Assembly (NCBI RefSeq): GCF_003626755.1
Contig: NZ_RBCJ01000002.1
Coordinates: 248,001 to 312,000 of the forward strand
Reading direction: 5' to 3'
DNA length: 64,000 nt
Origin: Ulvibacterium marinum
GTDB lineage: Bacteria; Bacteroidota; Bacteroidia; Flavobacteriales; Flavobacteriaceae
This document shows, in pieces, positions 2,935-47,762 of the stretch. The stretch's first letter is position 1, and the number at the start of each line of letters is the position of its first letter. A model generated the notes under the pieces. The model ran no database searches. It was not told where the DNA came from and saw only the letters and a list, made by a program, of their open reading frames with translations. A program made the translations under genes and the position numbers.

Positions 2935-2967
2935 AAAAAATTGTTAATGGAAAAATATATCGAAAAT

Positions 2968-21521: not shown

Positions 21522-21536
21522 CACATAGTTTTGGTT

Positions 21537-23345
21537 ATGCAATTTTTTCGATCGGAAATGGTTTACTTCTTGCTTCTAGTTAGTTTGTCCTGTACCGGGC
21601 CTCAAAAGCAAGAAAGGGATTTCACTTCCGAAATCAAACGTCCCAACGTGATTTTAGTAATGACCGATGACCAAGGTATCGGCGATTTGGGCGCTCATGG
21701 AAACCCTTGGATAAAAACGCCTAATATAGACAAGTTCTTTAACGAGTCTGTACGGCTTACCGATTTTCATGTGAGTCCCTTATGCACGCCCACAAGATCT
21801 GCTTTGATGACGGGCCAATATCCCATAAATAATGGGGTTTGGGCAACTTTCAAGGGAAGGGATATGTTACATGGGTCGTCCATAACAATGCCGGAAATAT
21901 TTGATCAAAATGGCTATGTTACCGGACTATTCGGTAAGTGGCATCTTGGAAATAACTATCCATCGCGACCAATGGACAAAGGTTTTGATATTGCAGTTCA
22001 TCATAACTCGGGCGGGGTAGGCGAGTTATCCGATTATTGGGGGAACAACTATTTTGATGATACGTATCTAGTCAATAACACACCAAAACAATTTGAGGGT
22101 TACTGTACCGATATTTGGTTTGATGAAGCCATAAAATTCATTAAGGACAAAAAAGACGAACCGTTTTTCATTTACCTTCCAACGAATGCACCGCACCATC
22201 CACTTTATGTAGAGGAACGTTATTCCAGACCTTATGATAGCTTGGTCAACAAGAATATACCCAGTGCCGAGTTTTACGGTATGATTACCAACATTGATGA
22301 TAATTTTGGTAAACTGGATAGAGCACTTAAGGAGATGGGATTGTTGGAGAACACCATTTTAATATTTTGTTCGGATAATGGTAGTCAATTCGGGGTAAGC
22401 GAAGACTATAGTTTGGGTTGGAACAAGGGATTACGGGGAAGAAAATCTGATAAATTGGAAGCAGGCCATAGGGTCCCCTTTTTCATTCGATGGCCCAAGG
22501 CCGGGATAAAGGACGGTAAGAATCTGACCGACCTAACTTCCCATGTAGATGTATTACCAACGCTTGCAGGTCTTTGCAATATGACACTACCAACAGGTTT
22601 TAAGGGTGATGGCATTGATCTTTCAGAAGTACTTTTAGACCCTGACAAACAGATATCGGAAAGAACAGTTTTTGTTCACCATCGGCAGGATTATCGCCAA
22701 CCTGAACCTATCGAGGGTTCTTGTGTAATGCGCGGAAAATGGCGTTTGTTGAACGGGTCACAACTATATGATATCACAACCGATCCAAAGCAAGAACATA
22801 ATATTGCCAAAGACTATCCGGAGGTGGTAAAACAACTTCTATCGGATAACAAGACGTTTATATCCAAGGCCATACAAAAAAAGGAATATCAGGAATTGGC
22901 CCACAAAAAGGTGGGTAGTAATCTACAAAAGACAACGACACTTACCATACAACATGCCTTAGGTGAAGATGGCCCAATATGGATGCAGGATGAAATTACT
23001 GCTGGGATCAAGAACAAAAATGCATTGCATCCCATAGAAATAATGAAAAAAGGAACCTATAGAATTCGATGTAGACGTTGGCCAATGGAATGTCCAGGTA
23101 CTATTAACGGTATTCCAGAACAGAATCCAAAAGGACTGTTCGAATATAAATCCTTGGACGTCCAGAAAATTGAAATTTCCATGTTCGGTAAATCCTATCA
23201 AAAGAATGTCGCGCCTATAGATGAGTATATTGATTTCGAAATTGAATTGAACCCGGGAAAAACGATGCTTAAAACGGAGTTTATTATACAAAATGAAACA
23301 TATGGTGTGTATTATACCTATGTGGAATTGGTAAAAGAATCGTAA
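21537..23345 (+). CDS. S1-family sulfatase, exported lipoprotein (copy 1)
   Basis: Formylglycine-dependent sulfatase. Signal peptide ends LSLSC. Metal-binding MTDDQG (about 42-47), the formylglycine signature CTPTR with Cys at about residue 83, GKWHLG, and SDNGSQFG for the second metal site are present. After the catalytic domain there is an extra C-terminal region (about 460-602) with beta-rich segments typical of this S1 subset. It would remove sulfate esters from galactan oligosaccharides outside the cytoplasm. The ATG at 21537 is chosen over the TTG at 21531 and the ATG at 21558; the last would leave a very short signal. A separate maturation enzyme would be needed and is not in the window. 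Confidence 0.9.
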   Translation: MQFFRSEMVYFLLLVSLSCTGPQKQERDFTSEIKRPNVILVMTDDQGIGDLGAHGNPWIKTPNIDKFFNESVRLTDFHVSPLCTPTRSALMTGQYPINNGVWATFKGRDMLHGSSITMPEIFDQNGYVTGLFGKWHLGNNYPSRPMDKGFDIAVHHNSGGVGELSDYWGNNYFDDTYLVNNTPKQFEGYCTDIWFDEAIKFIKDKKDEPFFIYLPTNAPHHPLYVEERYSRPYDSLVNKNIPSAEFYGMITNIDDNFGKLDRALKEMGLLENTILIFCSDNGSQFGVSEDYSLGWNKGLRGRKSDKLEAGHRVPFFIRWPKAGIKDGKNLTDLTSHVDVLPTLAGLCNMTLPTGFKGDGIDLSEVLLDPDKQISERTVFVHHRQDYRQPEPIEGSCVMRGKWRLLNGSQLYDITTDPKQEHNIAKDYPEVVKQLLSDNKTFISKAIQKKEYQELAHKKVGSNLQKTTTLTIQHALGEDGPIWMQDEITAGIKNKNALHPIEIMKKGTYRIRCRRWPMECPGTINGIPEQNPKGLFEYKSLDVQKIEISMFGKSYQKNVAPIDEYIDFEIELNPGKTMLKTEFIIQNETYGVYYTYVELVKES

Positions 23346-24196: not shown

Positions 24197-26014
24197 ATGA
24201 TTAAAGACGTAAAGATTGCAGCTTGCTTGTTAGTGCTTTTATTTATGACGCCGAATACTATAATGGCCCAAGAGATTAAAGGCGAGCTCAAAAAATGGCA
24301 TAAAGTAACACTGGTCTTTGAGGGACCACAAACTTCGGAAAAAGCAGAGGAAAATCCTTTTTTAGACTATCGTTTAAATGTCACTTTCACGCACTCAGCA
24401 TCACAGGAAAAATTTGTAATCCCAGGGTACTATGCGGCAGATGGGGATGCCGCCAATACAGGTGCCGAAGCAGGAAATATTTGGAAAGTCCATTTTGCCC
24501 CGGATAAAGAAGGAGAATGGACGTATCAGGTAGATTTCAAAAAAGGAAAATGGGCCGCCGTACGTTCATCGGAAAAGATAAAGAGCGCAGAATATATGGA
24601 TGGCAAGACAGGCAGTTTCACCATCAACAAAACGGACAAAACCGGAAGGGACTTCAGAGGGAAGGGAAGGTTGCAATACGTGGGCGAGCGTTACCTAAAA
24701 TTTCAGAATGGTGAATATTTCTTAAAATGTGGGTCCGATGCCCCGGAGAACCTTTTGGCCTACGATCAATTTGACGGTACTTTTAAAAATGATGGTCATA
24801 AAGATGACTTGATAAAAAAATGGGAAGCTCATCGGCAAGACTGGAAAGAAGGTGACCCTATTTGGAAGGGTGGCAAAGGAAAAGAGATTATAGGAGCAAT
24901 CAATTATTTGGCTTCCAAGGGAATGAACGCTTTTTCATTTTTAACCATGAATATTGAAGGTGATGATCAAAATGTTTTCCCCTATATAGATTACGATACC
25001 TGGGATCGCTTTGATACTTCAAAATTGGATCAATGGGAAATTCTTTTTGAACACGGCGATAAACTAGGTATGTTTTTGCATTTTAAAACCTTGGAGTTTG
25101 AAAACCAGGGCCTATTGGACAATGGGGGTACCGGATTGTATACTAAATTATATTATCGTGAGCTCATTGCACGTTTCGGACATCATTTGGCCATGAATTG
25201 GAACTTGGCCGAGGAAACGGGGGATTGGACCGAGACACCGCCGACTTTTCCATTGGATGCGGCGGAAAGAATTCGATTGGCCGAATACATTTCCTTTGTG
25301 GATCCTTATAAGCATCACCTTGTTATCCATAATGGAGCATGGTACGATGAAATTTATGGTCCGAACACAAAGTTTACGGGAGCCTCCTTACAGACCAATA
25401 AAGCTGATTTCAGTAATGTTCACAAATCTGTTTTAAGGATTTTGAACGAATCCAAAAAAGCTGGTAAAATTTGGGCGGTTGCCTGTGATGAACCTGGGGA
25501 TGCCCAACATTCCTTGATTACCGATACGGAAGACCCAGAGCACAATGATGCACGGAAAAATGGACTTTGGGGCGCCATGATGGCCGGTGCATGGGGCACG
25601 GAATGGTATTTCGGTTATAAGCACCCACATTCAGATTTAACCTGTCAAGACTATCGCTCTCGAGACCTTTTCTGGGACCAGGGAAAAATATGCCTTGATT
25701 TTTTTAATGAAAACAATATCCCCTTTTGGAATATGGAATCCAATGATTCCCTTATCTCCTCAGAAGGCGATTACGTTTTGTCCCAAACTGGGGAGAGTTA
25801 TGTAGTGTATCTGAAAAATGGGGGTGAATCAACCTTGGACTTAGGAAATTCAGATGGGGATTATGAGGTTTCTTGGTATAATCCACGGAAAGGTGGAGCA
25901 TTACAGAAAGGAAAGATCAAATCAATATCCGGCTCAGGAAATCAATCACTTGGCAAACCTCCTGTAAAGAAGGAGCAAGATAAGGATTGGGTGGTTTGGG
26001 TTCAAAAGAAATAA
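24197..26014 (+). CDS. DUF5060 domain protein with clan-A-like glycosidase barrel
   Basis: Secreted protein, signal peptide to about IMAQ (residue 25). Residues about 30-130 match the DUF5060 beta-sandwich (KWHKVTLVFEGP, DYRLNVTF, GKTGSFTI nearby). A TIM-barrel region follows with MNWNLAEETGDW (about 335-345), where the Glu could be acid/base, and ACDEPGD (about 430) as possible second carboxylate. The C-terminal ~90 residues resemble the putative collagen-binding-like domain often found after such barrels. Probable glycoside hydrolase of unknown specificity. The next gene begins 2 bases after its stop. Confidence 0.75.
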   Translation: MIKDVKIAACLLVLLFMTPNTIMAQEIKGELKKWHKVTLVFEGPQTSEKAEENPFLDYRLNVTFTHSASQEKFVIPGYYAADGDAANTGAEAGNIWKVHFAPDKEGEWTYQVDFKKGKWAAVRSSEKIKSAEYMDGKTGSFTINKTDKTGRDFRGKGRLQYVGERYLKFQNGEYFLKCGSDAPENLLAYDQFDGTFKNDGHKDDLIKKWEAHRQDWKEGDPIWKGGKGKEIIGAINYLASKGMNAFSFLTMNIEGDDQNVFPYIDYDTWDRFDTSKLDQWEILFEHGDKLGMFLHFKTLEFENQGLLDNGGTGLYTKLYYRELIARFGHHLAMNWNLAEETGDWTETPPTFPLDAAERIRLAEYISFVDPYKHHLVIHNGAWYDEIYGPNTKFTGASLQTNKADFSNVHKSVLRILNESKKAGKIWAVACDEPGDAQHSLITDTEDPEHNDARKNGLWGAMMAGAWGTEWYFGYKHPHSDLTCQDYRSRDLFWDQGKICLDFFNENNIPFWNMESNDSLISSEGDYVLSQTGESYVVYLKNGGESTLDLGNSDGDYEVSWYNPRKGGALQKGKIKSISGSGNQSLGKPPVKKEQDKDWVVWVQKK

Positions 26015-26016
26015 GT

Positions 26017-28101
26017 GTGAAAAAAGTTTTGTTTCCTTTTGTACTGGTGCTTTTCTGGTCCTGTCAGAACCGATCCGATACTATAACGGTATTTATGGAG
26101 GATGATTTAAGGAAAAAAACGGCATACGCATTTGACGAGTTGCAGAATAATCTAAAAGGCCATGAACTCAATTTGGTTTTTTCCGAAAACCCAGAAAAGG
26201 CCCAATTCGTCGTGAAGACCTCCACATCCAAGGAAAAGGATGCCAACGATGGTTTTTCAATTCAAAAGGAGGGCGGAAAACTAATACTTTCGTCAGAAAA
26301 TTCAAGAGGAGCGCTTTATGGGGTATTGGACATAGCCGACCAATTGAAAAAAGGTATTGACTGGTATGCTGTCGAAGAAAAATCTATAGCCGCTCATTAT
26401 CCATTTAGGGCCATTAAATTTAACCTGCCCTGGTTCTCCTATCGTAGCGGGGAAAACTTGTCCCTTCATTACGAGACTTGTCGTGATTTAAAGTTTTGGG
26501 AGTCTTTCTTGGACATGATGGTCGAGAATAAATTCAATACACTTACACTTTGGAATTTACATCCGTACATGTTCATGGTACAATCCGAAGCCTTTCCAAA
26601 AGCATCGCCTTTTACCAAAGCGGAAATGGAAGAATGGCAAATCTTCTGGAAAAGCCTATTCAAAATGGCCAAGGCCCGTGGTATCGACCCTTATATTTTT
26701 AACTGGAATATTTTTGTTTCGGAGGAATTCAGCAAAGAGTACAACGTAGCCGAGTATTCTAAAGATAGTGGTTTTTGGGGCGATGGAGAAACGAATGAAC
26801 TTATAGAGCAGTATACCAAAGAAATGGTTACCAATACCATTAATGAATATGAAGATTTGGCCGGAATCGGTATTACCTTGGGCGAGCGTATGGGTGGAAT
26901 GACCTCGGAAGAGCGCCGCGATTGGATAGACCGTACCCTTATTCAAGGGATAAAAGAGGCGGACAGAAAAGTGAAATTGTTTTATAGGGCACCACTTTCA
27001 GCCGGAAAAAGCAGTGAAGGCACAACAAGTGTGTCCGCCGAAAAATTGACACGTGAAGCCATAGAAAATATTGGATTGGAAGATGATGTACTCTTAGGTT
27101 TTAAATTCAACTGGTCGCATGCCCATTCGTCTCCCAAGGTATCTATTGTACATGGGGGTATTTTAACGGATACCTATTGGAAACCAGCCCCTAAGAACTA
27201 TAAAGGGGTGTGGACTATGCGCAATGAGGACTTTTTCGCACTGCGTTGGGCGCAACCGGATTTTATCCGAGATTTTATACAACACAACAGCCAAGATTAT
27301 ATTGGGGGGTGTATTATTGGCTCGGAGACTTATATTCCTGCTAAGGATTACATCACCAAAAAGGAATTTCAAACATGGGACTATGCCTATGAACGGCAGT
27401 GGTTATTCTATAAGGTTTGGGGTAATCTACTCTATAATAAAATAACACCGGACTCTTATTTTGCAGAGGCCTTGGCCAAAAAATTCGATTTGGAAGATGC
27501 CTCGGAACTGATTTCAGCTTGGAAAATGGCCTCTCAGAATGCCAATCGTTTTGCTAGTTTTTTTCGTGGTACCTGGGATGCCACCTTGTATACTGAGGGG
27601 ATGACCACTGTTGGAGGTAAATTCATTGATATAGAAAAGATGATGACCCATCCTGTTTTGGATTCTTCCTATGTAAACATTTCCGATTTCGTAAAAGGAT
27701 ACTTCAAAGATGATCAGATTACACCATTGCAACTAGCCGATAATACAGAAATGGAAAGTAATGAAGCACAGAAAATTGCCAATAGCATAAAGAATGAAAA
27801 TCAATCCCAAGAATTGCAGATCGAGTTAAACGATATTGATGCTTGGGGCCATTTCGGTTTATACTTTGCCGATAAAATACGTGGAGGTGTAGCGCTTCAA
27901 AAGTATAGAGTCAGCGGAAATGACGAACTTCAACAAGAAGCAGTTTCACATCTAAAGAATGCACTACAACATTGGAAGGATTATACCCAAGCCATGGAAA
28001 AATATAACGTATCAACAATGCCTTATCAATTTGATCAAGAGTTCTCATGGCGAAAACATATTGTTAATGCAGAAAATGATATTCGTATCGCTGAAAAATA
28101 A
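26017..28101 (+). CDS. GH67/GH20-like putative glycoside hydrolase lipoprotein (paralogue A)
   Basis: Exported lipoprotein beginning at the GTG at 26017; signal MKKVLFPF with lipobox FWSC. An N-terminal GH67N/GH20b-like domain (about 20-110) contains SSENSRGALYGVLDIADQ. The following TIM-barrel region has LTLWNLHPY, IFNWNIF, GIGITLGERMGG and WTMRNEDFFALRW. The Glu in TLGERM is conserved in the paralogue at 31205 and is a catalytic candidate. The classical alpha-glucuronidase GH67 catalytic motifs are not seen, so activity may differ. The gene follows the DUF5060 gene by 2 bases, which indicates cotranscription. Confidence 0.7.
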   Translation: MKKVLFPFVLVLFWSCQNRSDTITVFMEDDLRKKTAYAFDELQNNLKGHELNLVFSENPEKAQFVVKTSTSKEKDANDGFSIQKEGGKLILSSENSRGALYGVLDIADQLKKGIDWYAVEEKSIAAHYPFRAIKFNLPWFSYRSGENLSLHYETCRDLKFWESFLDMMVENKFNTLTLWNLHPYMFMVQSEAFPKASPFTKAEMEEWQIFWKSLFKMAKARGIDPYIFNWNIFVSEEFSKEYNVAEYSKDSGFWGDGETNELIEQYTKEMVTNTINEYEDLAGIGITLGERMGGMTSEERRDWIDRTLIQGIKEADRKVKLFYRAPLSAGKSSEGTTSVSAEKLTREAIENIGLEDDVLLGFKFNWSHAHSSPKVSIVHGGILTDTYWKPAPKNYKGVWTMRNEDFFALRWAQPDFIRDFIQHNSQDYIGGCIIGSETYIPAKDYITKKEFQTWDYAYERQWLFYKVWGNLLYNKITPDSYFAEALAKKFDLEDASELISAWKMASQNANRFASFFRGTWDATLYTEGMTTVGGKFIDIEKMMTHPVLDSSYVNISDFVKGYFKDDQITPLQLADNTEMESNEAQKIANSIKNENQSQELQIELNDIDAWGHFGLYFADKIRGGVALQKYRVSGNDELQQEAVSHLKNALQHWKDYTQAMEKYNVSTMPYQFDQEFSWRKHIVNAENDIRIAEK

Positions 28102-28126: not shown

Positions 28127-31100
28127 ATGAAAAAGCTATTTCTACTTCTTGGACTAGTATTCGCCTTCTTGGGATGTAAACAGGATGTAAAAGAGCCCCG
28201 AAATGTCTCGATAGATGAGATTTCAGGAAGCGAGGAAGTAAAAGAATTTATGGAAACCTTCAATAGTATGGGAATCCAGTCCGACGGTACTCAAAATATA
28301 TCTCCCCAGGAAGCCCTTAAAAAATTTGATATCGCCAAAGATTTGCAGATTGAATTGGTACTTTCCGAACCAGAGATACATCAACCGGTCGACATTAGTT
28401 TTGACCATCGTGGCAGGTTATGGGTGGTACAATACAACCAATATCCCTATCCCGAAGGGGTTAAGGTAACGGATATAGATAGACATAACCGTGCAGTCTT
28501 TGATAAGACTCCCAAACCGCCATCTGAAGGCGTAAAGGGTGCGGATAAGATAACCATCTTTGAGGATACCAATAATGACGGCAAGTATGATAAATCTATA
28601 GATGCCATTACCGGACTTAACATTACCACTGGTGTGGCCTTGGGACGTAAAAGGATATGGGTACTTACGCCGCCATATTTAGTAGCTTACCCGGATACGG
28701 ATGGCGATGGTCTTCCGGATGGAAAACCCGAAGTACACTTGGAAGGTTTTGGATTGGAAGACACCCATGCGGTGGCCAATAACCTGCGTTGGGGTCCCGA
28801 TGGGTGGTTGTATGGAGCCCAAGGGAGTACTACTGTAGCAAATGTAAATTCTGCAGTTTCTAAAAACGTCTATTTTAGCGGACAGGGCATATGGCGTTAC
28901 CATCCAGAAACCAAGATCTTTGAGGTATTTGCAGAAGGTGGTGGAAATACCTTCGATGTGGAATTTGATAAAAAGGGAAGGGTTTATTCGGGGGACAATG
29001 GAACGGCCCGCGGCTTCTATTATAAACAAGGCGGCTATTATCTGAAAAACTGGGGGAAACATGGAGCTTTGACCAACCCCTATGCTTTTGGATTTCTTCC
29101 AGGTATGGAACTGGAAGGGGAGAAGTTTCGATTTACACACGCCTGGATCAAATACGAAGAAGCAAATTTACCCAAACGCTATCACGGTAAAATATTGGCT
29201 CTGAATCCCTTGCATAATTTTGTTCGGCTTACGCGTATGGAAGAAAAAGGGTCAACTTTTCTTTGTATTGACGAGGAAAAGATTCTAGAGTCTTCAGATC
29301 ATTGGTTTAGGCCTGTTGATATCAAATCGGGACCTGATGGTGCCGTTTATATTGCTGACTGGAACGATAGTAGAATGTCCCACGTAGATCCACGGGATAC
29401 CTGGAGCAAGACAACGGGCAGGATCTATAGATTTCGCAATAAGGAAAAATTGACCGTTCCAAATTTTGATTTAAGTACCATGACCAATTCCGAATTGGTA
29501 CAACTGCTGAGCAACAAGAATAAGTGGTTCCGACAGGAGGCTTTACGGCAATTTGGTGATAGAAGGGATGGCAGTGTTTTACCAGAACTTGAAACGATAT
29601 TTCATTCTAATGTTTCCGGACAAACTTCCTTAGAGGCACTTTGGGCTATCCATCTGACCGGTGGGTTCAGTGATAAAATAGCGCTTGAAGCCATGGATCA
29701 TACCGATCCCTATGTTCGACTTTGGGCTATCCGATTGATTGGAGATACTCGGAAAGCTTCAAATTCTGTTGCCCGGAAATTAAAGGAAATGGCTATTTCC
29801 GAATCCCATTTGGAAGTTTTGGGACAACTGGCTTCCACGGCCAAGCGTCTTCCCCAGGATGTGGCTATACCTATTATAGCAGGTCTGTTTGAGAATAACT
29901 TCCATCAGGAGGATATCGAAAATCAAATGTTTACATGGTGGGCCGTCGAATCGAAAGCAGAAACGGGCAGAAAACTCGTATTGGCACTTTTTAATAAGAA
30001 AGAAATATGGGACAAGGCCTTGGTGAAAGATGTGGTTTTGGAACGTCTTATACAGCGTTACGCCATAAAGGGCGGAGATGAAAATTATTCTTCCTGTATA
30101 GAATTGTTAAATCTTTCGCCTAGCCATGCACATGCCAAAATACTTTTCACGGGTTTGCAGGAAGGATTACGGGGTCGTAGCCCTTTTGAAATACCAACAG
30201 ATCTTGCCCAAATGATTCAGAAGTATCAATCCAAGTTCGGGGAAGGCAAATTGGCATTGCCATTACGACGCAACGAAACCGAAGCTGTGGACAAAGTTTT
30301 AGAACTGTTGCCCAATGAAGATGCCGATAGGTTAGAGCGACTGGCCTATATTAAAATCTTTGGGGAAATTGACCAGCCCAAGTCAATTCCGGTTTTGTTG
30401 GGTATCGCCCAGGATCACAAATATTCAATAGCCGTTAGGGTGGCCTGTTTGGAAACTCTGGGCCACTATAATGAAGAGGTTATCGGAAAGGAAATGGCGG
30501 ACGCCTATCTTTTTAAACTCAGGGCGGATCTGGACCTAAGAAAGGCGGCCTTTCAACTCTTTGCAAGCAGGGCATCATGGGCGAGTGCTTTTCTCGTAAA
30601 GATTAGCGATACCAAGGAAGTTAAGAAAAGTGAAGTGCCTTTGGAAATTATTCGGCAGTTTAAACTTTTGGGCGATTCCGACTTGAGTAAAAAAGTAGAT
30701 GAATTATGGCCCAGTGTTAAAATGGTCTCTTCGGAGGAAAAGGAGAAAGAAATCAAAAGGATTCAAAAGGCCTTAGTCTCTGGAAAAGGAAATGTAGAGA
30801 AGGGTAAAAGTCTTTATGGTATGTACTGTGCAAATTGCCACATCTTGAATGGAGAAGGCAAGGAAATAGGCCCTGAACTGACGGGATATGATAGAAACAA
30901 CCTTACCTATATGGTCCTGAACATCGTGGATCCGAACGCCGATATCCGGGAAGGTTATGTAAACTACCGGGTAAAGAAAAAAGATGGGCAGGTCATCGTA
31001 GGGATACTCACTGACCGTAGCGCGGGAAAAATTAAGATAAAACCTTTAGGGATGGATGAAATAACACTTGTTCCAGAAGCAATAGATGAAATAAAGGCTC

Positions 31101-31189
31101 AAAAAGCATCCATAATGCCTGAGCGATTATTGGCCGGGTTATCGGAGCAAGATATCCGGGATCTATTTGCCTACATGAACAAAGAATAG
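28127..31189 (+). CDS. PVC-type membrane-bound dehydrogenase/HEAT/haem-binding lipoprotein
   Basis: Exported lipoprotein of 1020 residues (lipobox FLGC). The N-terminal part (about 50-420) is a propeller of the putative membrane-bound dehydrogenase type, with VDISFDHRGRLWVVQYNQYP, LRWGPDGWLYGAQGS and VDIKSGPDGAVYIADWNDSR. HEAT-like helical repeats follow (about 440-850). The C-terminal haem-binding domain has YCANCH near residue 900 followed by GPELTGYDRNNL. This architecture is best known in Planctomycetota/Verrucomicrobiota and is also found in marine Bacteroidota. It probably oxidises a sugar or sugar alcohol and passes electrons to the haem. It sits between two GH67-like paralogues. Confidence 0.8.
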   Translation: MKKLFLLLGLVFAFLGCKQDVKEPRNVSIDEISGSEEVKEFMETFNSMGIQSDGTQNISPQEALKKFDIAKDLQIELVLSEPEIHQPVDISFDHRGRLWVVQYNQYPYPEGVKVTDIDRHNRAVFDKTPKPPSEGVKGADKITIFEDTNNDGKYDKSIDAITGLNITTGVALGRKRIWVLTPPYLVAYPDTDGDGLPDGKPEVHLEGFGLEDTHAVANNLRWGPDGWLYGAQGSTTVANVNSAVSKNVYFSGQGIWRYHPETKIFEVFAEGGGNTFDVEFDKKGRVYSGDNGTARGFYYKQGGYYLKNWGKHGALTNPYAFGFLPGMELEGEKFRFTHAWIKYEEANLPKRYHGKILALNPLHNFVRLTRMEEKGSTFLCIDEEKILESSDHWFRPVDIKSGPDGAVYIADWNDSRMSHVDPRDTWSKTTGRIYRFRNKEKLTVPNFDLSTMTNSELVQLLSNKNKWFRQEALRQFGDRRDGSVLPELETIFHSNVSGQTSLEALWAIHLTGGFSDKIALEAMDHTDPYVRLWAIRLIGDTRKASNSVARKLKEMAISESHLEVLGQLASTAKRLPQDVAIPIIAGLFENNFHQEDIENQMFTWWAVESKAETGRKLVLALFNKKEIWDKALVKDVVLERLIQRYAIKGGDENYSSCIELLNLSPSHAHAKILFTGLQEGLRGRSPFEIPTDLAQMIQKYQSKFGEGKLALPLRRNETEAVDKVLELLPNEDADRLERLAYIKIFGEIDQPKSIPVLLGIAQDHKYSIAVRVACLETLGHYNEEVIGKEMADAYLFKLRADLDLRKAAFQLFASRASWASAFLVKISDTKEVKKSEVPLEIIRQFKLLGDSDLSKKVDELWPSVKMVSSEEKEKEIKRIQKALVSGKGNVEKGKSLYGMYCANCHILNGEGKEIGPELTGYDRNNLTYMVLNIVDPNADIREGYVNYRVKKKDGQVIVGILTDRSAGKIKIKPLGMDEITLVPEAIDEIKAQKASIMPERLLAGLSEQDIRDLFAYMNKE

Positions 31190-31204: not shown

Positions 31205-33370
31205 ATGGGTTTGACACAGAAATTTAGGATATCCTTGTTTACGGTTTTTGTCCTGTTTACAGTACTTGGTGCTAATTACCATTTGTATGCTCAAGATGGA
31301 ATAGACCTTGACTTTGCCTTGCGCAAAATTGAGGAGGCCAAAGCAAAGAATGGACTTACATCCTTAAAAATTGATTTTAAGTTGGATTCCAAATTGGGTT
31401 CCGAAGCATATACTATTAAAACTTCAGGAAATAGGACAACCATTTATGGCGGCGATGGGAGAGGACTTTTATATGGAGGTTTGGAAGTTGCGGAGCAAAT
31501 AGTTTTAAACCAAAAAATTGCTGAAACACGACGCAAGCCCTATCTGGAAAAACGCGGTCTAAAATTCAATATCCCATTGGATGCGCGTACACCTAGTTAT
31601 GATGACACGGGTGATGCTGCTCAAAACAACATTTTGGAAATGTGGAAATGGGAATTTTGGGAAGAATTTCTAGATAACATGGCCTTGCATCGCTATAATA
31701 CATTGACTTTATGGAACCCGCACCCGTTTCCCTCCATGATTAAAATGAACGATTTTCCGAATGTAGCCCTAGAAGATGTAAAGGTCACTACGTTAAAGCC
31801 TATTGGTAAGGAAAATGAATGGGCCGAACCGCAAATGGTATCGAGCAATGTGATGGAAAACTTGAAAACCGTCAAGAAAATAACAATAGATGAGAAAATT
31901 TTATTTTGGAAAAAGGTAATGCACCTTGCCAAACAAAGGGGTATCGATATCTACTTTATTACCTGGAACATTTGCCCTAATAGTGTTGCGAAACCTGTAC
32001 CTCCATTCTATCGTACATATGATGTTGATCCCTATGATGAACCTGCGGGTAAATATGGGATTTCCCATCAGGCAGATGACCCCGAGACCATTGCATATTA
32101 CCGTACAGCGGTAAAGACCTTTTTGCTCACGTATCCTGATATAAAAGGAATTGGAGTGACCGCAGGGGAACATATGTCAAAACCTTTTGGTGATTACAAT
32201 CGCGAAAAATGGCTGTGGGAGACCTACGGCCAGGGTGTGCTAGATGCCAAGGAAATACAACCAGAGCGAAAAGTGCATTTCATACATCGGGTTTGGAACT
32301 CGAATATGGAACTTATTATGCGCTATTGGAAGGATTATCCAGATCAGTTTGATGTCAGTTTCAAATACGCCAAGGCGAGACTGTATTCCTCGCCGAATAT
32401 TCCTTTTGCGGATAATCATATTGAGGCAATGAAGCCCTATGGGCTCAAGTCTTGGTGGAACCTTCGCAATGACGATATTTTTGTTTACCGATGGGGCGAT
32501 GCAGAATATGTTAGGGAGTTTTTAGGCAATTTTCCGAAGGAACATACAGCCGCATATCACATGGGCTCGGATGGTTATGTTTGGGGAAGGGAGTTTGTTT
32601 CGAAGGATTCGGAGGTTGCAGGTCAGCTCGAAATTGAAAAACATTGGTACAATTTCATGTTATGGGGAAGATTGGGTTATGACAATACACTCAGTAGAGA
32701 TTTCTTTATAAAGAAATTGCAAAATCGTTTTCCAAACTTAGATGCAACTTTGTTGTATAATACGTGGCAGTTTGCATCCAAGATAGTTCCCCAGATCAAT
32801 CGTTTCTATTGGAAGGATTGGGACTTCATGTGGTCTGTGGAATCCTGTTACAACGAGCGAAAAGGTTTTCAGACGGTTCTCGATTTTATGGATAATCCCA
32901 CTATGGAAGGTAGTGCGATTATCAATCCCAAAACTTATGTAGAAACAACAGGCGAGGGAAACATTGCGGATGGCATAACTCCAATACAAGTTGCCCATAA
33001 CTTAAACGAGTACGCCACAAAAACAATTGATGGCGCTCAAAAATTGAAAATGACTAACATGGCAATTACCCCGGAAGCCTCTATTTTACTAGATGATATC
33101 CTAGCAATGGCTTACTTGGGAAACTATTATGCCGCTAAGATGCAAGCGGCCACTGAGCTATCCTTTTTTATCAAAAATGAAAAAGCCATACACCAAAAAA
33201 ACGCCATAAGTCTTCTTGAGGAAGCCATAGTTCATTGGATGAATTACGCGGACATTTCAGAAACCCATTATAAGAGCCAAATGCTGGCACGGACAAAAAT
33301 GATCGATTGGCAGGCTATTTTAAATGATGTAAAACAAGATATTGAATTGGCCAAAAACATAAAATTATAG
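31205..33370 (+). CDS. GH67/GH20-like putative glycoside hydrolase, secreted (paralogue B)
   Basis: Paralogue of the protein at 26017, 721 residues. It has a normal Sec signal peptide (cut near LYAQ, about residue 30) instead of a lipobox. Matching landmarks: GDGRGLLYGGLEVAEQ in the N-terminal domain, LTLWNPHPF, FITWNICP, GIGVTAGEHMSK, WWNLRNDDIFVYRW and YHMGSDGYVWGREF. The Glu in TAGEH aligns with that in TLGER of paralogue A. It has an insertion after WNPHPF absent from A. Probably periplasmic, acting on the same class of glycan as A with a different linkage or substituent. Confidence 0.7.
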   Translation: MGLTQKFRISLFTVFVLFTVLGANYHLYAQDGIDLDFALRKIEEAKAKNGLTSLKIDFKLDSKLGSEAYTIKTSGNRTTIYGGDGRGLLYGGLEVAEQIVLNQKIAETRRKPYLEKRGLKFNIPLDARTPSYDDTGDAAQNNILEMWKWEFWEEFLDNMALHRYNTLTLWNPHPFPSMIKMNDFPNVALEDVKVTTLKPIGKENEWAEPQMVSSNVMENLKTVKKITIDEKILFWKKVMHLAKQRGIDIYFITWNICPNSVAKPVPPFYRTYDVDPYDEPAGKYGISHQADDPETIAYYRTAVKTFLLTYPDIKGIGVTAGEHMSKPFGDYNREKWLWETYGQGVLDAKEIQPERKVHFIHRVWNSNMELIMRYWKDYPDQFDVSFKYAKARLYSSPNIPFADNHIEAMKPYGLKSWWNLRNDDIFVYRWGDAEYVREFLGNFPKEHTAAYHMGSDGYVWGREFVSKDSEVAGQLEIEKHWYNFMLWGRLGYDNTLSRDFFIKKLQNRFPNLDATLLYNTWQFASKIVPQINRFYWKDWDFMWSVESCYNERKGFQTVLDFMDNPTMEGSAIINPKTYVETTGEGNIADGITPIQVAHNLNEYATKTIDGAQKLKMTNMAITPEASILLDDILAMAYLGNYYAAKMQAATELSFFIKNEKAIHQKNAISLLEEAIVHWMNYADISETHYKSQMLARTKMIDWQAILNDVKQDIELAKNIKL

Positions 33371-33418: not shown

Positions 33419-34237
33419 ATGAAAATAACAGTATCTAAATTCTTTACACTTATTAGTCTATTAATTGTTCTTAATGCTTGCAAAGAAGAAGCCAAGCCCA
33501 ATATAGCGGAGGGGTCAGATAAAAAAATAGAAATTGTTGAAAAACCGGATTTGTTCTACCATTATTCTATTTGGCATGCCTTTGTCAATAAGATTTTTGA
33601 AGGCGATATAACCGCTGGAGAATTAAAGACTAAGGGCGATATTGGTCTCGGTTCCTATAATTTTTTGGATGGGGAATTGATCATGCTCAATGGTCAGCTC
33701 TATCAGGCCAAAGAAAACGGGAAGGTTGTGAAGCCTTCCGATGACATTAAAATCGCCTATGCCAATGCTACTTTTTTTGATACAGACGATACGTTTAATT
33801 TGCAAGAAGTCCCTGATTACGAAACCTTAAGAAAATATATCAATGAAAAATTACCGACAAAAAATATATTCTACGCTTTTAAAATTCATGGGGAGTTTTC
33901 AAAAATGAAATGTGGTGGATTGCACAAACAGGAAAAGCCTTTTGACAAGGGTTTGGATTATTTGATTCCTAACCGTCCCATTTTTGAACGGGAAAATTTT
34001 ACCGGAACTATGGTCGGCTTTTTTTGTCCCGAATTTATAGGCGATATCAACGCATCTGGTTACCATCTACATTTTGTTTCCGATGATGAAACTTTTGCCG
34101 GTCACGTAATGGAATTTGAAGCAAAGAACCTCAAAGTTGAAATTGACCAGATACACGAATACCAATTTGTGCTTCCGCAGACTGAAGAATACAGAAACGT
34201 CGGTTTTGAAAAGGAATTTCAATATAAGAAGCAATAG
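33419..34237 (+). CDS. Exported acetolactate-decarboxylase homologue (lipoprotein)
   Basis: Member of the alpha-acetolactate decarboxylase family (normally cytoplasmic, acetolactate to acetoin). Family landmarks: LGSYNFLDGELIMLNGQLYQ, GTMVGFFCPEF and the zinc-site pattern GYHLHF (about 214-219) with AGHVMEF downstream (His about 229). All ligand histidines appear kept. Unusually it has a lipoprotein signal (LNAC, Cys 21) and lies in a glycan operon right before a sugar-acid transporter. A different periplasmic substrate, such as a branched 2-keto or ulosonic acid, is possible but is inference. Length after the signal is normal for the family. Confidence 0.85.
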   Translation: MKITVSKFFTLISLLIVLNACKEEAKPNIAEGSDKKIEIVEKPDLFYHYSIWHAFVNKIFEGDITAGELKTKGDIGLGSYNFLDGELIMLNGQLYQAKENGKVVKPSDDIKIAYANATFFDTDDTFNLQEVPDYETLRKYINEKLPTKNIFYAFKIHGEFSKMKCGGLHKQEKPFDKGLDYLIPNRPIFERENFTGTMVGFFCPEFIGDINASGYHLHFVSDDETFAGHVMEFEAKNLKVEIDQIHEYQFVLPQTEEYRNVGFEKEFQYKKQ

Positions 34238-34254: not shown

Positions 34255-35544
34255 ATGGGAAATAGATCACAAGCGACCCGAAAAAGATATAATATTCTCA
34301 CCATGATATTCGTAACCGTGGTCATCAATTATTTGGACCGGACGAATATCTCCATAGCGGCTTCAGCCATTCAAAAAGACCTCGGTATCAACTCGATACA
34401 AATGGGGTATGTTTTTTCCGCCTTTGCATGGACCTACGCTTGTTTACAAATTCCCGGTGGGATTGTTGCGGATAAGATTAAATCAAGGGTATTATACACT
34501 TTTATTATGGCCTTCTGGTCCATTGCAACCTTGATTCAGGGATTTGCCAATTCGTTTATTACCTTAATTGGGCTTAGGGCCAGTATTGGTGTTTTTGAAG
34601 CACCTTCATACCCCATAAACAATTTAATCGTTACCAGATGGTTCCCTGAAAAGGAGCGGGCATCCGCTATAGGAATTTATACTTCGGGCCAGTTTTTAGG
34701 AATGGCCTTTTTGCTTCCCGTGCTTGCCATTATTCAAAATTATCTAGGTTGGCGGGGACTCTTTTTTGTGTCGGGGGCCATAGGCATCCTCTGGGCAGGG
34801 ATTTGGTATTACTTCTATCGAGATCCCCAAGAACACAAATATGTCAGCGACACGGAGTTGGAACACATCAAATCTGGAGGTGGTCTTGTAGATATAAAGG
34901 AAAAAGCTGAAAAGAAGATGGATTTTAAATGGTCGGACATAAAACAAGTTTTTCTTTACCGTAAACTTTGGGGCCTTTATATTGGTCAGTTTTGTCTTGG
35001 TGCTACCATTGTGTTTTTCCTAACCTGGTTTCCGACCTACTTGGTCAAGTACCGGGGGCTAGATTTTTTGCAATCCGGATTTTTAGCTTCCATTCCTTAT
35101 TTGGCGGCCTTTGCCGGAGTATTATTGTCCGGTTTTACTTCTGATTATCTGACTAGAAAAGGCTATTCCGTAGAAATGTCAAGAAAGGCGCCAATTATTA
35201 TAGGCATGTTGTTATCTACCTGTATTATTGGCGCCAATTACACCAATAGTACTTTTTTTATTATATTCTTTTTGGCCTTGGCCTTTTTTGGTAATGGCCT
35301 GGCAAGTATTGCATGGGTATTCATTTCATTAATGGCGCCTAAAAAACTCATAGGACTTACGGGAGGGGCCTTTAATTTTATTGGCGGGTTGGCCGGAATT
35401 GTGGTGCCTATTGTAATTGGATATTTGGTAGAGGACGGTGATTTTGGCCCTGCGCTATTTTTTATTGGAGGAATAGCCCTTTTGGGATTCATCTCTTATA
35501 CTTTTATAGTAGGTAAGGTAGAGCGTATCATTATAAAAGAATAA
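34255..35544 (+). CDS. MFS transporter of the anion:cation symporter (ACS) family, sugar-acid type
   Basis: Twelve-helix inner-membrane carrier of 429 residues. The start contains VVINYLDRTNISIAA and a loop GIVADKIKSR, as in hexuronate, glucarate and galactonate proton symporters. A central charged loop lies around residues 190-220. Its partner gene 37 bases downstream is a galactonate-dehydratase-like enzyme, so D-galactonate or a related aldonic acid is the likely cargo. Confidence 0.83.
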   Translation: MGNRSQATRKRYNILTMIFVTVVINYLDRTNISIAASAIQKDLGINSIQMGYVFSAFAWTYACLQIPGGIVADKIKSRVLYTFIMAFWSIATLIQGFANSFITLIGLRASIGVFEAPSYPINNLIVTRWFPEKERASAIGIYTSGQFLGMAFLLPVLAIIQNYLGWRGLFFVSGAIGILWAGIWYYFYRDPQEHKYVSDTELEHIKSGGGLVDIKEKAEKKMDFKWSDIKQVFLYRKLWGLYIGQFCLGATIVFFLTWFPTYLVKYRGLDFLQSGFLASIPYLAAFAGVLLSGFTSDYLTRKGYSVEMSRKAPIIIGMLLSTCIIGANYTNSTFFIIFFLALAFFGNGLASIAWVFISLMAPKKLIGLTGGAFNFIGGLAGIVVPIVIGYLVEDGDFGPALFFIGGIALLGFISYTFIVGKVERIIIKE

Positions 35545-35581: not shown

Positions 35582-36742
35582 ATGAAAATATCGGATATCA
35601 AGACCTATCCTATTAATATTGGTTCAGGAAGTCAGTTGGTCGTAAAAGTTGAGACAGATTCCGGTATATATGGTTGGGGGGCATCAGGACTTTCGGGAAG
35701 GGAGCTTGCAGTAATAGGTGCCATTACCCACTTTAAGGTTTTTTTGATAGGTAAAGACCCTCATAAAATAGAAGCTATTTGGCAGGAATTATACCGAGGA
35801 CAGTATTTTGAAGGTGGACGGGTTTTGGCGGCGGCCATTTCCGCCATAGATATTGCTTTGTATGATATTAAGGGAAAAACCCTTGGTGTACCGGTTTATG
35901 AATTATTAGGAGGGAAGCAGCGTAATTTTGTACCCTGTTTTGCTTCTGTACGATTTACAACCCTTAAGGAATTGTTGGATTATTCAAATACTTGTATTAA
36001 GGAAGGCTGGAAAGTTCTTCGTTTGGCACCTGCCGAATTTGAATCGCAGAAGGATAAAAGCCGCTTTGAGCCTACGGAGTCCATAACACTTTTGGCGGAT
36101 TGGGTCAGAGAATTAAGACACCAAGTGGGTAGGGGAATCACAATCGGAATCGATTATCATACCCGACTCACGGCCGCCGAAACCTATTCCTTTATTAAAC
36201 GCATGCCCGCGGGGACCTTGGATTTTATTGAAGAACCTATCCGTGATGAAAATCCGGAAGCTTATGAAAGTCTTCGTAAAATGGTGGATGTGCCCTTCGC
36301 CATTGGCGAGGAGTTCTCCAGCAAATGGCAATTTCTACCGTTTTTGGAAAAGAACATTGCACAATATGCGCGTGTTGATGTTTGTAATGTAGGTGGAATT
36401 ACCGAGGCCATGAAAGTAGCGGCCATCGCCGAGGCCCACTACATCGATTTGATGCCGCACAATCCCTTGGGTCCCATATGTACGGCAGCTTCAATTCATA
36501 TGGCAGCGGCATGTAGCAATTTTAGTTATTTGGAGGAGATAAACACCCCTGCTCAACAGATGGGTACCAATGACCGGAATTTTTATCCGGTGCAGCCTGA
36601 GTTGGACGGGACAGGATATCAAGTTCCGGATACCTCTGGACTAGGGGTGGAATTTGACGAGAAATATGCATTGAATCAAGAATTTAAGCCCGTAGAAATT
36701 CCTAGGTTAAAAAGAGACGACGGCTCTTTTACAAATTGGTAG
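35582..36742 (+). CDS. Enolase-superfamily sugar-acid dehydratase, galactonate-dehydratase-like
   Basis: Mandelate-racemase-group barrel of 386 residues. Metal-binding IGIDYHTRL, FIEEPIRDENP and IGEEFSSKW are visible, and LMPHNPLGPI carries the catalytic His typical of the DgoD branch. Likely converts D-galactonate to 2-keto-3-deoxygalactonate in the cytoplasm. It is distinct from the cycloisomerase at 18283, which has CSHGMQELH at the equivalent place. The last 14 bases overlap the 3' end of the converging sulfatase gene. Exact substrate is inferred from motif and from the ACS carrier next to it. Confidence 0.8.
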   Translation: MKISDIKTYPINIGSGSQLVVKVETDSGIYGWGASGLSGRELAVIGAITHFKVFLIGKDPHKIEAIWQELYRGQYFEGGRVLAAAISAIDIALYDIKGKTLGVPVYELLGGKQRNFVPCFASVRFTTLKELLDYSNTCIKEGWKVLRLAPAEFESQKDKSRFEPTESITLLADWVRELRHQVGRGITIGIDYHTRLTAAETYSFIKRMPAGTLDFIEEPIRDENPEAYESLRKMVDVPFAIGEEFSSKWQFLPFLEKNIAQYARVDVCNVGGITEAMKVAAIAEAHYIDLMPHNPLGPICTAASIHMAAACSNFSYLEEINTPAQQMGTNDRNFYPVQPELDGTGYQVPDTSGLGVEFDEKYALNQEFKPVEIPRLKRDDGSFTNW

Positions 36743-38168
36743 GGGACACAGGTTCACCCTCCAAAGGATAATCCGAATCATAAATGTGGGCTTCCTTCAT
36801 ATATGTCTTTAGCTTTTCAAAGACGTCCAGGTGTTCTTCAATAAGATTATTTTCTTCGCCAATATCATTGGACAGGTCATAGAGTTCCCAGGAATCCGAT
36901 TTATAGATGTGTAGCAACTTCCATTTTCCGCTACGTATGGCCTGCGCATCATGGTTACTTTCGGCAAATTCCCAGTATAAATAATCATGTTGTTTTTGCG
37001 TATCGGACTGCCCCATAAGTGTTGGAAGAAACGATATTCCATCCGTAGCCGTAGCTAAAGGATAATCGATTACGTCCGCATAGGTCGGAAGCATATCCCA
37101 AAAAGCCGTTGGAAGATCAGATACCGAGTTGGGGGAAATCTTTCCCGGCCACTGGGCAATAAATGGAACTCGGACACCTCCTTCATACAAGTCCCGTTTG
37201 GTACCTTTTAGGGCGCCGTTGCTATCAAAAAAATCCGGGTTTACACCACCTTCCTTATGGGGGCCATTGTCACTGGTAAAAATGACCAAAGTATTTCTAT
37301 CTATTTTCAGATCTTTCAACTTATCCAATATTCTGCCTACATCCGCATCCAGGAGACTTATCATGGCTGCCTTGGCCTTTTCGGGTTCTGGCCAATCCCG
37401 ATTCTTATAGATTCCTAAATTTGGAACCTCCATCCCATGATCTGCTGTCAATTCCCCTTCATTGTTCGCATGTGGTATGGTCAAGGGTAAGTATAGAAAA
37501 AATGGCTTCTGCTTTGGAGCATCCAAAAATCGTAAGGCCTCCTTGATGATCAACGAGTGCGAATATTCATTTTTATCGGTAGCAGCACCTCCTATTCCTT
37601 TAGCATAGCCTTCCTTGGCCAGGATTACCTTGTTATTTAAGCGTATTTTTTCTCCATCTTTTAGAAGATGATCGGGATAGTAATTATGTGCGTGAATTTG
37701 GTTTAAATAACCAAAATATGTATCGAATCCCTGTACTGAAGGTTCTCCTGTGGAACCTACTTCGCCTAGGCCCCATTTTCCCATTAGAGCTGTGGTGTAC
37801 CCTGCTTTTTGGAACATTTTTGCCAAGGTAAAGTCATTGGGAGTCAATATGTTGTTATTGTTTCCCCGCACCGGCGCATGTCCCTGATGTAGACCGGTCA
37901 TCAATGAGGCTCTTGAGGGCGCACATACCGTATTACCGGCATAATGGTTGGTAAAACGGATACCGTTTTGGGCCATTTGGTCCAACCTCGGTGTCCTGAT
38001 TCTTTCTTGTCCATAACTCCCTAAGTCCCCATATCCCAAATCATCGGCCAGGATATAGATAATATTAGGGGTATTGACCTTTGAAACTTCAGGATTCTCC
38101 TTTTTAATCTTACCGCAGGAATTTCCCGCCAATACGGCCAAACCTAATAGAATACTTTTTTTTATCAT
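36729..38168 (-). CDS. S1-family sulfatase, exported lipoprotein (copy 2)
   Basis: Formylglycine sulfatase of 479 residues. Signal peptide ends GNSC (Cys 18). Metal site LADDLGYGD (about 40-48), signature CAPSRASLMTG with the modified Cys at residue 82, GKWGLGE, and FTSDNGPHKEGG are present. It lacks the long C-terminal extension of copy 1 and belongs to a different S1 subgroup. It starts the minus-strand block only in the sense of position: it is the last gene of the leftward operon. Probably removes a differently placed sulfate. Confidence 0.9.
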   Translation of the reverse strand: MIKKSILLGLAVLAGNSCGKIKKENPEVSKVNTPNIIYILADDLGYGDLGSYGQERIRTPRLDQMAQNGIRFTNHYAGNTVCAPSRASLMTGLHQGHAPVRGNNNNILTPNDFTLAKMFQKAGYTTALMGKWGLGEVGSTGEPSVQGFDTYFGYLNQIHAHNYYPDHLLKDGEKIRLNNKVILAKEGYAKGIGGAATDKNEYSHSLIIKEALRFLDAPKQKPFFLYLPLTIPHANNEGELTADHGMEVPNLGIYKNRDWPEPEKAKAAMISLLDADVGRILDKLKDLKIDRNTLVIFTSDNGPHKEGGVNPDFFDSNGALKGTKRDLYEGGVRVPFIAQWPGKISPNSVSDLPTAFWDMLPTYADVIDYPLATATDGISFLPTLMGQSDTQKQHDYLYWEFAESNHDAQAIRSGKWKLLHIYKSDSWELYDLSNDIGEENNLIEEHLDVFEKLKTYMKEAHIYDSDYPLEGEPVSPTNL

Positions 38169-44268: not shown

Positions 44269-45438
44269 TCAATTACGCATGGCCGCCTCAGGAAACATAT
44301 CTTTCCAAATAATGGTTTTATGGGTCTCTGCGGAACGCTTTGCGGCTTCCAGTATTTGCATTACCCGTTTATTGTTTTCCAATGATGAGACATCGTATGC
44401 CGGTAGTTGGTGGTTCTCCTGAACCACTTTTTGCAACAACGCAAAAGGGTCATGGAAGCCTTGTGGAAGCGGTTCTGCCTCCAAAGCGCTTGACTCTTGT
44501 TTTCTCCCTGTCATGATTTCCATGGCACTTGCATTTTTGCAAATCACATAACCTGTAGTTCCATAAATTTCCATATCCTTTACATGATGTGGCCAATTCC
44601 AAGAAGCTTGAATAATGACTTGGTTTTCGGGATAGTCCAAAACTATTGTGGCATCATCATCCACTTTTGGATACAAATTAGGTTTCAATTGTTGGGTGAT
44701 ACAAGTAACGGATTCCGGCTCTTGTCCTTTCATGAACCAAGTCGCCAGATTGGCACCATAGCAACCAAAATCGGTAAGGGCACCTCCACCATTCAAAACG
44801 GGATCCGTAAGCCATTCCAAAAACTCAGGATTGCATCCTATTTCAATGGGACCAAAATGGCCTGTATGGAAAACCATTCGACGGATATTCCCAATTTTTC
44901 CCTCAGTATGAACAAGGTCATAGGCTTTATAATTACTGCCATACCAAGAGGTTTCATAATTGGTAAGTAAATGAATTTCATGTTTTTTGGCCAGGGCGAT
45001 CATTTCTTGGGCATGTTCCCAACTTACGGCCAAGGGTTTTTCTACCATTACATGCATGCCCAACGGAGCGCAATATTTCACAGTATCCAAATGGTCATAA
45101 ATTGAATTGAATGCGGTTACGGCTTCAGGTTGTACCGCTTTAACCATTTCATCCAAGGAATCAAAAACAATATCCATGGAATATCCATGCTGGTCGGCAT
45201 ATCTTTGGGCGAGTTCCCTGTTGGGCTCTACAATTCCCACAATTTCGATGTCGCCCAATTTTTCCCTCCCCAGAATCCAGTGTACATGGGTATGGACCAG
45301 TCCCACCACGCCGATTCGTAACGGTTTTTGGGCTTTCCCAATTTCTTTCAATTCCATATTGTTATCATGAGCCGATATCAAGGAGGTAATAGAAAATAAC
45401 AGTATCAGACCCATCCACTTTTGAGATATGCTGCTCAT
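44269..45438 (-). CDS. Exported Gfo/Idh/MocA-family oxidoreductase (Sec signal)
   Basis: NAD(P)-dependent sugar oxidoreductase fold of 389 residues. The Rossmann motif IGVVGLVHTHVHW (about 42-54), MVEKPLAV with the conserved Lys (about 136), and NGGGALTDFGCYG are typical. A Sec-type signal peptide (about 1-23, core GLILLFSITSLISA) precedes the fold; an internal start at Met 28 would give a cytoplasmic form, and the sequence cannot decide. It overlaps the SGNH gene start by 4 bases (ATGA), a sign of translational coupling. Probably acts on a sugar or sugar derivative of the locus. Confidence 0.8.
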   Translation of the reverse strand: MSSISQKWMGLILLFSITSLISAHDNNMELKEIGKAQKPLRIGVVGLVHTHVHWILGREKLGDIEIVGIVEPNRELAQRYADQHGYSMDIVFDSLDEMVKAVQPEAVTAFNSIYDHLDTVKYCAPLGMHVMVEKPLAVSWEHAQEMIALAKKHEIHLLTNYETSWYGSNYKAYDLVHTEGKIGNIRRMVFHTGHFGPIEIGCNPEFLEWLTDPVLNGGGALTDFGCYGANLATWFMKGQEPESVTCITQQLKPNLYPKVDDDATIVLDYPENQVIIQASWNWPHHVKDMEIYGTTGYVICKNASAMEIMTGRKQESSALEAEPLPQGFHDPFALLQKVVQENHQLPAYDVSSLENNKRVMQILEAAKRSAETHKTIIWKDMFPEAAMRN

Positions 45439-46130: not shown

Positions 46131-47762
46131 TTACTCCAAACCTTTGCGTTGATGTGCGATATCCGCAGCGATAATATTTCCTTTGGTTTTTCCAAATTCC
46201 GTTCGAATATAATTTAAAATATCCCTTATTTCGTTATCCTCTAAATTTTTATAGGCAGGCATTTCTCCTTGATAGGAAACACCATTCACTTGTATAGGGT
46301 GATTAAGGCCTCCCAAGGTAACATCTATGAGTCTGGCCACGTTGCCGGATACCCATTCACTATCCACCAAAGGTGGAATCTGCCCAACATTTCCCTTGCC
46401 ATTCGGGGCATGACAGGCAGCACAATGCGTACCATAGAGTTTGGCGCCGTTGTCCAAATCATCATTGGACGTAATAGATCTGTAAATTTCTGGACTTAAA
46501 CTAATTGCGGTAAGTTCTTCTTTTAATTCGATGGGTTTTTCTAAAGCTGCCAATTGCCGTTGTATACCTTCATCGGCTATTTGTATCTTAATGATACGAT
46601 CACCATTGGATTTGGGCAAAGAATCATATAACCAAGGCTGATGCCCCTGGTGCCAATCCATATTGCTTGTGGCCAGATAAATCTCACCCTGCTTACCAAC
46701 CGCTACATCACGCAATCTTCCTAAGAATTTTTGGAAAAAGAGATGCTCTTCATTGATTTTATCACCCTCTGCATTTAATGACAAAACCCGAAAGGAACGA
46801 CCTTTTAGGGTGGTCAATAGCAAACTGTTTTTCCATTCGGGAATTTGATCACTGTCATAATATTCCAGTCCTGCTGTGGCAATGGTCGGTGTCCATGCCA
46901 TTAGAGGCTCTTGGGTAACCGAATCCTTGGCATAGGCCTTTTCGTTTTCCAAGTCGATAAAACCATGGATGTCCGGCCAACCATAATTTGAACCTTTTTG
47001 TATAAGGTTAACTTCATCATCGTTGTTCGGACCATGCTCGGAAGCATATAGCTTGCCATTCCCAATGGTTATACCGTGAATATTTCTATGACCGGTGCTC
47101 CAGGTAGGATTGTTTGGGTATGGATTGTCATCTGGAATACTTCCATCAAGATTGAGGCGCAAAACCTTTCCGTTTAAGGTTTCAATATGCTGAACGGTTC
47201 GGGTATCCCCAACATCTCCGGTGCCGATCCATAGCTTGTCCTGAAAAATTAGCATACGACTTCCATTGTGATACGTGTTTCCAGGGATATCCTTTAAAAT
47301 AAGTTTTGGGTCCACCAGACTGTCCCCTTCCAAAGAATACCGCATAATTTTAGAAGAAATAATATCTAGAAAATTATTGTCCTTTTCTGATACGGTATAA
47401 TGAACATAAAGGAAAGGATCCGTTTCAAAACTCGGGTGTAGGGCCATACTAAACAATCCTGATGATTTTCGGTAGAATACATCATCCAAAACGGCCAAAT
47501 TTTGAATTTCGCCGGTGGCAATATCAACTCTATTTATAGTGCCTTTTTGTTCTGTAAAATATAACCATCCATCCGGACCAGGTACCAAATCCCAGGGCAC
47601 TTCAAGATTTTTGGCCACTTCGGTTACCAGTAATACAGACGAATCCAATTGTACTTGAGCCAAATAATTTTTTCCGTCCCAATTTGGCTTAGGGGGTGTT
47701 GAGCAGGCAACGATCAACAGTATACAATAGGTTACGATACCAAATATTAAGCCTCTCCCCAT
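46131..47762 (-). CDS. PQQ-type aldose sugar dehydrogenase fused to cytochrome c (lipoprotein)
   Basis: Exported lipoprotein of 543 residues (lipobox IVAC). Residues about 45-410 are a six-bladed propeller of the soluble glucose/aldose dehydrogenase (Hhip-like) family: LEVPWDLVPGPDGWLYFTEQ, DDEVNLIQKGSNYGWP and RLRDVAVGKQGEIYLA. A cytochrome c domain follows with CAACH at about 446-450 and a Met ligand candidate in YQGEMPAY. It would oxidise an aldose such as galactose to the lactone and pass electrons to haem. It overlaps the next upstream gene (48700-47747) by 16 bases. PQQ use is inferred from family. Confidence 0.85.
   Translation of the reverse strand: MGRGLIFGIVTYCILLIVACSTPPKPNWDGKNYLAQVQLDSSVLLVTEVAKNLEVPWDLVPGPDGWLYFTEQKGTINRVDIATGEIQNLAVLDDVFYRKSSGLFSMALHPSFETDPFLYVHYTVSEKDNNFLDIISSKIMRYSLEGDSLVDPKLILKDIPGNTYHNGSRMLIFQDKLWIGTGDVGDTRTVQHIETLNGKVLRLNLDGSIPDDNPYPNNPTWSTGHRNIHGITIGNGKLYASEHGPNNDDEVNLIQKGSNYGWPDIHGFIDLENEKAYAKDSVTQEPLMAWTPTIATAGLEYYDSDQIPEWKNSLLLTTLKGRSFRVLSLNAEGDKINEEHLFFQKFLGRLRDVAVGKQGEIYLATSNMDWHQGHQPWLYDSLPKSNGDRIIKIQIADEGIQRQLAALEKPIELKEELTAISLSPEIYRSITSNDDLDNGAKLYGTHCAACHAPNGKGNVGQIPPLVDSEWVSGNVARLIDVTLGGLNHPIQVNGVSYQGEMPAYKNLEDNEIRDILNYIRTEFGKTKGNIIAADIAHQRKGLE

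Follow-up and report, generated by a model that had tools for sequence, protein, structure and literature searches.

The gene studied here lies within a 64,000-nt stretch of DNA, which we call the window, and all coordinates are positions within that whole stretch. It forms an exact and intact open reading frame running from ATG to stop, which encodes a protein of 272 amino acids, hereafter the window protein. The gene and the surrounding features considered in this analysis are as follows.

1–4581, forward strand: SusC-like receptor (1–2934) and SusD-like lipoprotein (2941–4581), at the start of a polysaccharide locus.
21531–23345, forward strand: sulfatase (PF00884).
25987–28101, forward strand: second, more distant GH138-like protein, matching the NCBIfam alpha-galacturonidase model at E 1.2e-32, far below its cut-off.
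28127–31189, forward strand: exported DUF7133/HEAT/cytochrome-c protein, flanked by the two GH138-like genes and without conservation in related loci.
31205–33370, forward strand: GH138-like protein, the conserved partner, with a profile match to BPa0997 (6hze) at E 3.5e-48 over both halves.
33419–34237, forward strand: lipid-anchored protein with the acetolactate decarboxylase (ALDC) fold, member of an arginine-swapped clade (Cys21 lipobox, H216/H218/H229, E86, G166, R186, no Glu253 tail).
34255–35544, forward strand: MFS carrier of the D-galactonate transporter subfamily (TIGR00893, 405 bits, cut-off 395), 17 bp after the window gene.
35582–36742, forward strand: sugar-acid dehydratase of the mandelate-racemase/enolase family, a local neighbour seen in 1 of 32 related loci.
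36729–38168, reverse strand: sulfatase (PF00884), cluster c1.

The DUF7133/HEAT/cytochrome-c protein belongs to a type whose name refers to Planctomycetes and Verrucomicrobia. Also encoded in the window are a Gfo/Idh/MocA oxidoreductase that appears to carry a signal peptide (44269–45438) and a glucose/sorbosone-dehydrogenase-like cytochrome-c protein (46131–47762), which together suggest sugar oxidation outside the cytoplasm.

The window protein matched PF03306 with an E-value of 1.4e-67 (227.7 bits at a cut-off of 25, covering positions 2–217 of the 219 in the profile), and no other Pfam family was reported for it, PF08925 (DUF1907) included. Solved ALDC structures matched as well, the best being 4bt2 (E 4.9e-48, with 35% identity across the fold), so that the ALDC homologue recognized at this position in an earlier, sequence-only reading was borne out. 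The protein also scored 210 bits against the equivalog model for acetolactate decarboxylase, NCBIfam TIGR01252 (cut-off 180.65), which likewise matched all ten clade members sampled, i.e. the window protein and nine relatives. It is by passing this cut-off that the protein comes to be named acetolactate decarboxylase, a name that is probably wrong. The AlphaFold model, with a mean pLDDT of 91.4, had ALDC 4bt3 as its closest fold (VIA Z 34.1, rmsd 1.6 Å over 230 residues), followed after the ALDCs by PTD012/C11orf54 (1xcr; VIA Z 15.2, 218 residues aligned).

For the B. brevis enzyme we take the catalytic residues, following the work on 4bt2–4bt7, to be the zinc ligands His194, His196 and His207 together with Glu65, Arg145 and Glu253. 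The three histidines align to H216, H218 and H229 of the window protein and Glu65 to E86, all of them present, in agreement with the intact zinc site of the sequence-only reading. What that reading had missed was the remainder of the active site, where Arg145 is replaced by Gly166 in a KCGG motif, Gln164 is replaced by Arg186, and the Glu253 motif is absent. We aligned 95 homologues, comprising 56 of the ordinary, Arg-type kind and 39 with the swap, and one further sequence (L098) had His at position 145. The Arg-type proteins had Arg145 in 56/56 and Gln164 in 55/56 cases; in the swapped proteins position 145 was Gly (36) or Ala (3) and position 164 was Arg in 39/39, with the His triad and Glu65 kept in every one. 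The LxxVE/AE tail motif that holds Glu253 was found in 49/55 Arg-type proteins and, by inspection, in none of the 39 swapped members, the main-clade C-termini instead reading FQYN or FQYKK (FQYKKQ in the window protein); a loose version of the tail pattern gave two matches among swapped proteins, both upstream of the expected place of the motif. The arginine has thus moved and the tail glutamate has been lost throughout the clade, while the metal site was kept. In the model, G166 ends a strand (151–166) and R186 precedes another (188–203), and because of these strand ends the two positions are probably near each other; the pairing of the strands would also place Arg186 near the zinc. Two other features of the protein were considered and rejected. 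The C-terminal E266 is no stand-in for Glu253, as in the alignment it precedes the Glu253 position by about nine residues and is Q, S, K, T, A or R in relatives, and a C165–C203 disulfide was ruled out by the Leu found in place of C165 in the KLGG subgroup.

In a maximum-likelihood tree built without the columns of the swapped positions, a single branch separated all 39 swapped proteins from the rest (support 95/96, present in 94% of bootstrap trees), which shows that the swap has one origin, in Bacteroidota, and has persisted since. The main clade (n = 33) comprised proteins from Flavobacteriaceae, Cytophagales and Chitinophagales and one from a Pirellulaceae MAG. Of the two small groups sister to it, one consisted of proteins from Chryseobacterium and relatives and the other of proteins with the motif KMAS. 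For the Pirellulaceae MAG contig (L060), transfer and mis-binning are both candidate explanations. The KMAS group (L016–L019 and L044) has Ala at the position of Arg145 and Arg at that of Gln164, and its genes adjoin a CMD/SMP-30-like fusion protein and a 300-aa open reading frame without a Pfam match. A second and more distant lipoprotein family with a weak PF03306 match (38.8 bits), seen in the window's own genome (C12, L002:1471–2199) and in L020–L032, is widespread in Flavobacteriaceae and has an HxH...H motif but no Arg145.

The window protein begins with a hydrophobic signal, SKFFTLISLLIVLNAC, which ends in a lipobox at Cys21 (LNAC at 18–21) and is followed by KEEAK, confirming the clear lipobox noted earlier. 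A lipobox was present in 33/39 members of the swapped clade, and also in 13/55 Arg-type homologues; the ALDC of B. brevis is itself an exoenzyme. Export therefore does not discriminate between the two kinds of protein, and we dropped it as evidence of a new role, although the sequence-only reading had held it to argue against a role with acetolactate. The residues CKEE fit the K-(D/E)2 consensus for surface export (LES) just after the Cys, a consensus from another genus, Capnocytophaga (PMC5080379), at positions where relatives of the window protein vary.

We then compared gene neighbourhoods at 71 loci found among 84,980 scanned species genomes, 32 of them from the main clade and 39 from other homologues, and sorted the neighbours into families by BLAST against representatives. 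Sulfatases were found within 10 kb in 16/32 main-clade loci against 1/39 others, the 10-kb flanks being incomplete in several loci, and GH78 and GH43 were each found in 7/32 main-clade loci and in none of the others. As a control, a TPP enzyme of the acetolactate-synthase type adjoined 10/39 other loci and 0/32 main-clade loci. Neighbours of keto-sugar type (Gfo/Idh/MocA, 3-keto-disaccharide hydrolase, GSDH, ThuA or xylose-isomerase-like proteins, the kinds differing between loci) were present in 12/32 main-clade loci against 1/39 others, but all these neighbourhood contrasts are partly taxonomic, because the comparison loci include many other phyla, and keto-sugar-type genes are common in Bacteroidota. 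The galactonate-type carrier was found in 0/32 main-clade loci and the MR/MLE dehydratase in 1/32, so that both were discarded as functional partners. The argument that the gene sits between a glycosidase and a sugar-acid carrier thus holds on its glycosidase side only.

That glycosidase side is provided by the GH138-like protein encoded at 31205–33370, whose gene ends 48 bp before the start of the window gene. A GH138-like protein was encoded within 10 kb in 18/32 main-clade loci against 0/39 others (p 1.5e-8, with related genomes not being independent), and its placement varied between upstream, downstream and the opposite strand. Across 397 Flavobacteriaceae genomes a GH138-like orthologue was found in 11, the swapped protein in 10 and both in 9 (9/10 genomes against 11/397 overall; hypergeometric p 8.9e-16). 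In two of these nine (G230 and G375) the two genes were on different contigs, and the link therefore extends beyond the local neighbourhood. Only two GH138-like genes occur in the genome of the window, both within 7 kb; their products are 26% identical to each other and have no match in Pfam. Of the two catalytic glutamates of BPa0997, Glu294 is kept in the GH138-like proteins (window E322), but the position of Glu361, in an alignment read by hand, is Ala (KYAKA), so that catalysis may be altered in what would be a glycosidase-like family.

ALDC (EC 4.1.1.5; B. brevis 4bt2/4bt3) thus shares with the window protein its fold, His3 zinc site, Glu65 and export, and differs from it in the replacements of Arg145 by Gly and Gln164 by Arg and in the Glu253 motif that the window protein lacks; the window clade, moreover, has no linkage to acetolactate synthase and is tied to loci with GH138-like proteins and sulfatases. 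The other relative in fold is PTD012/C11orf54, which, as described in PMC12435205, has a His3 zinc site, hydrolyses p-nitrophenyl acetate and was identified by Malatesta et al. (2025) as the 3-dehydro-L-gulonate decarboxylase of the human pathway from D-glucuronate to L-xylulose, its domain DUF1907 (PF08925) being eukaryotic and also found in some bacteria. It has the same overall fold and zinc site as the window protein but is only 12% identical to it, and it acts on a sugar-derived beta-keto acid within what is described as a human pathway and not in an exported glycan pathway. Because C11orf54 is reported there to decarboxylate a beta-keto sugar acid, such chemistry is not new for the fold, and the new role for the fold that had been proposed was an overstatement; what is new is an exported, glycan-locus version of it with a swapped arginine. 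Another non-hydrolase in a Bacteroidota polysaccharide locus that acts on the uronic-acid ends of oligosaccharides is P29_PDnc, the ulvan oligosaccharide dehydratase of Formosa agariphila, which is described as needing no added cofactor and has K303 in its proposed mechanism, a position beyond the 272 residues of the window protein (PMC8511951). We found no link between P29_PDnc and ALDC, and identity with this longer protein was ruled out. In the literature that we searched, no paper linked acetolactate decarboxylase to ulvan, or to polysaccharide utilization together with sulfatase.

Since the arginine has moved and the C-terminal glutamate is lost while the metal site is kept and a GH138-like enzyme travels with the gene, the window protein very probably has a job other than that of ALDC, in the breakdown of seaweed or plant sugars. 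With moderate confidence we propose that it is an exported, lipid-anchored zinc enzyme of ALDC descent with changed chemistry or substrate, acting on an oxidized sugar acid. The likeliest function would be that of a zinc-dependent enzyme which, outside the cytoplasm, turns over a keto acid derived from a sugar, both substrate and reaction being inferred, and a decarboxylase or isomerase of such an acid is a plausible candidate. Its substrate, an oxidized (keto) uronate, aldonate or oligosaccharide end set free in the glycan pathway, would be met in the periplasm or at the surface of the cell. The zinc would hold the carbonyl and a neighbouring oxygen of the substrate, and Arg186, in its new place, would bind the carboxylate with a changed geometry that leaves room for the sugar. 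The chemistry would be of the enediolate kind. A beta-keto sugar acid would most likely be decarboxylated, as it is by C11orf54, the alternative being a keto/aldo isomerization. The loss of Arg145 and Glu253 could equally mean that no decarboxylation takes place at all.

A different reaction at the same metal is conceivable, if unlikely, in that the protein might be a zinc hydrolase or lactonase of a sugar ester or lactone, working by zinc-bound water with Glu65 as base and with the decarboxylation residues dispensable. A His3 zinc site with one Glu is a hydrolase-like set, PTD012 cleaves p-nitrophenyl acetate, and lactonase or SMP-30-type propellers are found near L048, L051, L052, L064 and L065, as well as close to two sister proteins, L082 and L044. 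Such lactonase neighbours are nevertheless limited to 5/32 related loci, all of them without a GH138-like gene nearby; the esterase activity of PTD012 turned out not to be its proposed main role; and we saw neither a serine nor any other signature of a hydrolase. Still less probable is a zinc-binding lipoprotein without catalysis, e.g. one that binds glycans at the surface or serves assembly within the complex with the GH138-like enzyme. In favour of it, two residues taken to be catalytic have been lost, such loci commonly encode SusD-like and other binding lipoproteins, and the KEE following the Cys fits the surface-export consensus, but the His triad, Glu65 and the new Arg are invariant in 39/39 proteins over deep divergence, which argues for an active site under selection. 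Finally, an ordinary acetolactate decarboxylase exported by chance, for all that the profile scores, the identity to 4bt2 and the existence of exported Arg-type homologues speak for it, is very unlikely, and so is one whose neighbours vary at random, a case that the sequence-only reading had itself raised against its proposal, given the clade-wide change at three positions conserved in ordinary homologues, the lack of an acetolactate synthase neighbour and the strong linkage to GH138-like proteins, sulfatases and other glycan enzymes.

Returning to the proposed keto sugar acid enzyme, the clade could tentatively be seen as a family of exported decarboxylases, undescribed in the literature that we searched, which would take CO2 off keto sugar acids arising outside the cytoplasm from the breakdown of algal or plant glycans, by means of an ALDC fold whose catalytic arginine has switched its position. 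If keto sugar acids are indeed the substrates, glycan loci hold a step as yet uncatalogued among carbohydrate-active enzymes, and the tight partnership with the GH138-like protein makes the question of the substrate directly testable. Acetoin formation is probably mispredicted in genome annotations of marine Bacteroidota, because the curated equivalog model fits proteins in which residues held to be catalytic have changed. The strict two-position swap with a retained zinc site, moreover, offers a natural experiment on how a change of reaction comes about in this fold.
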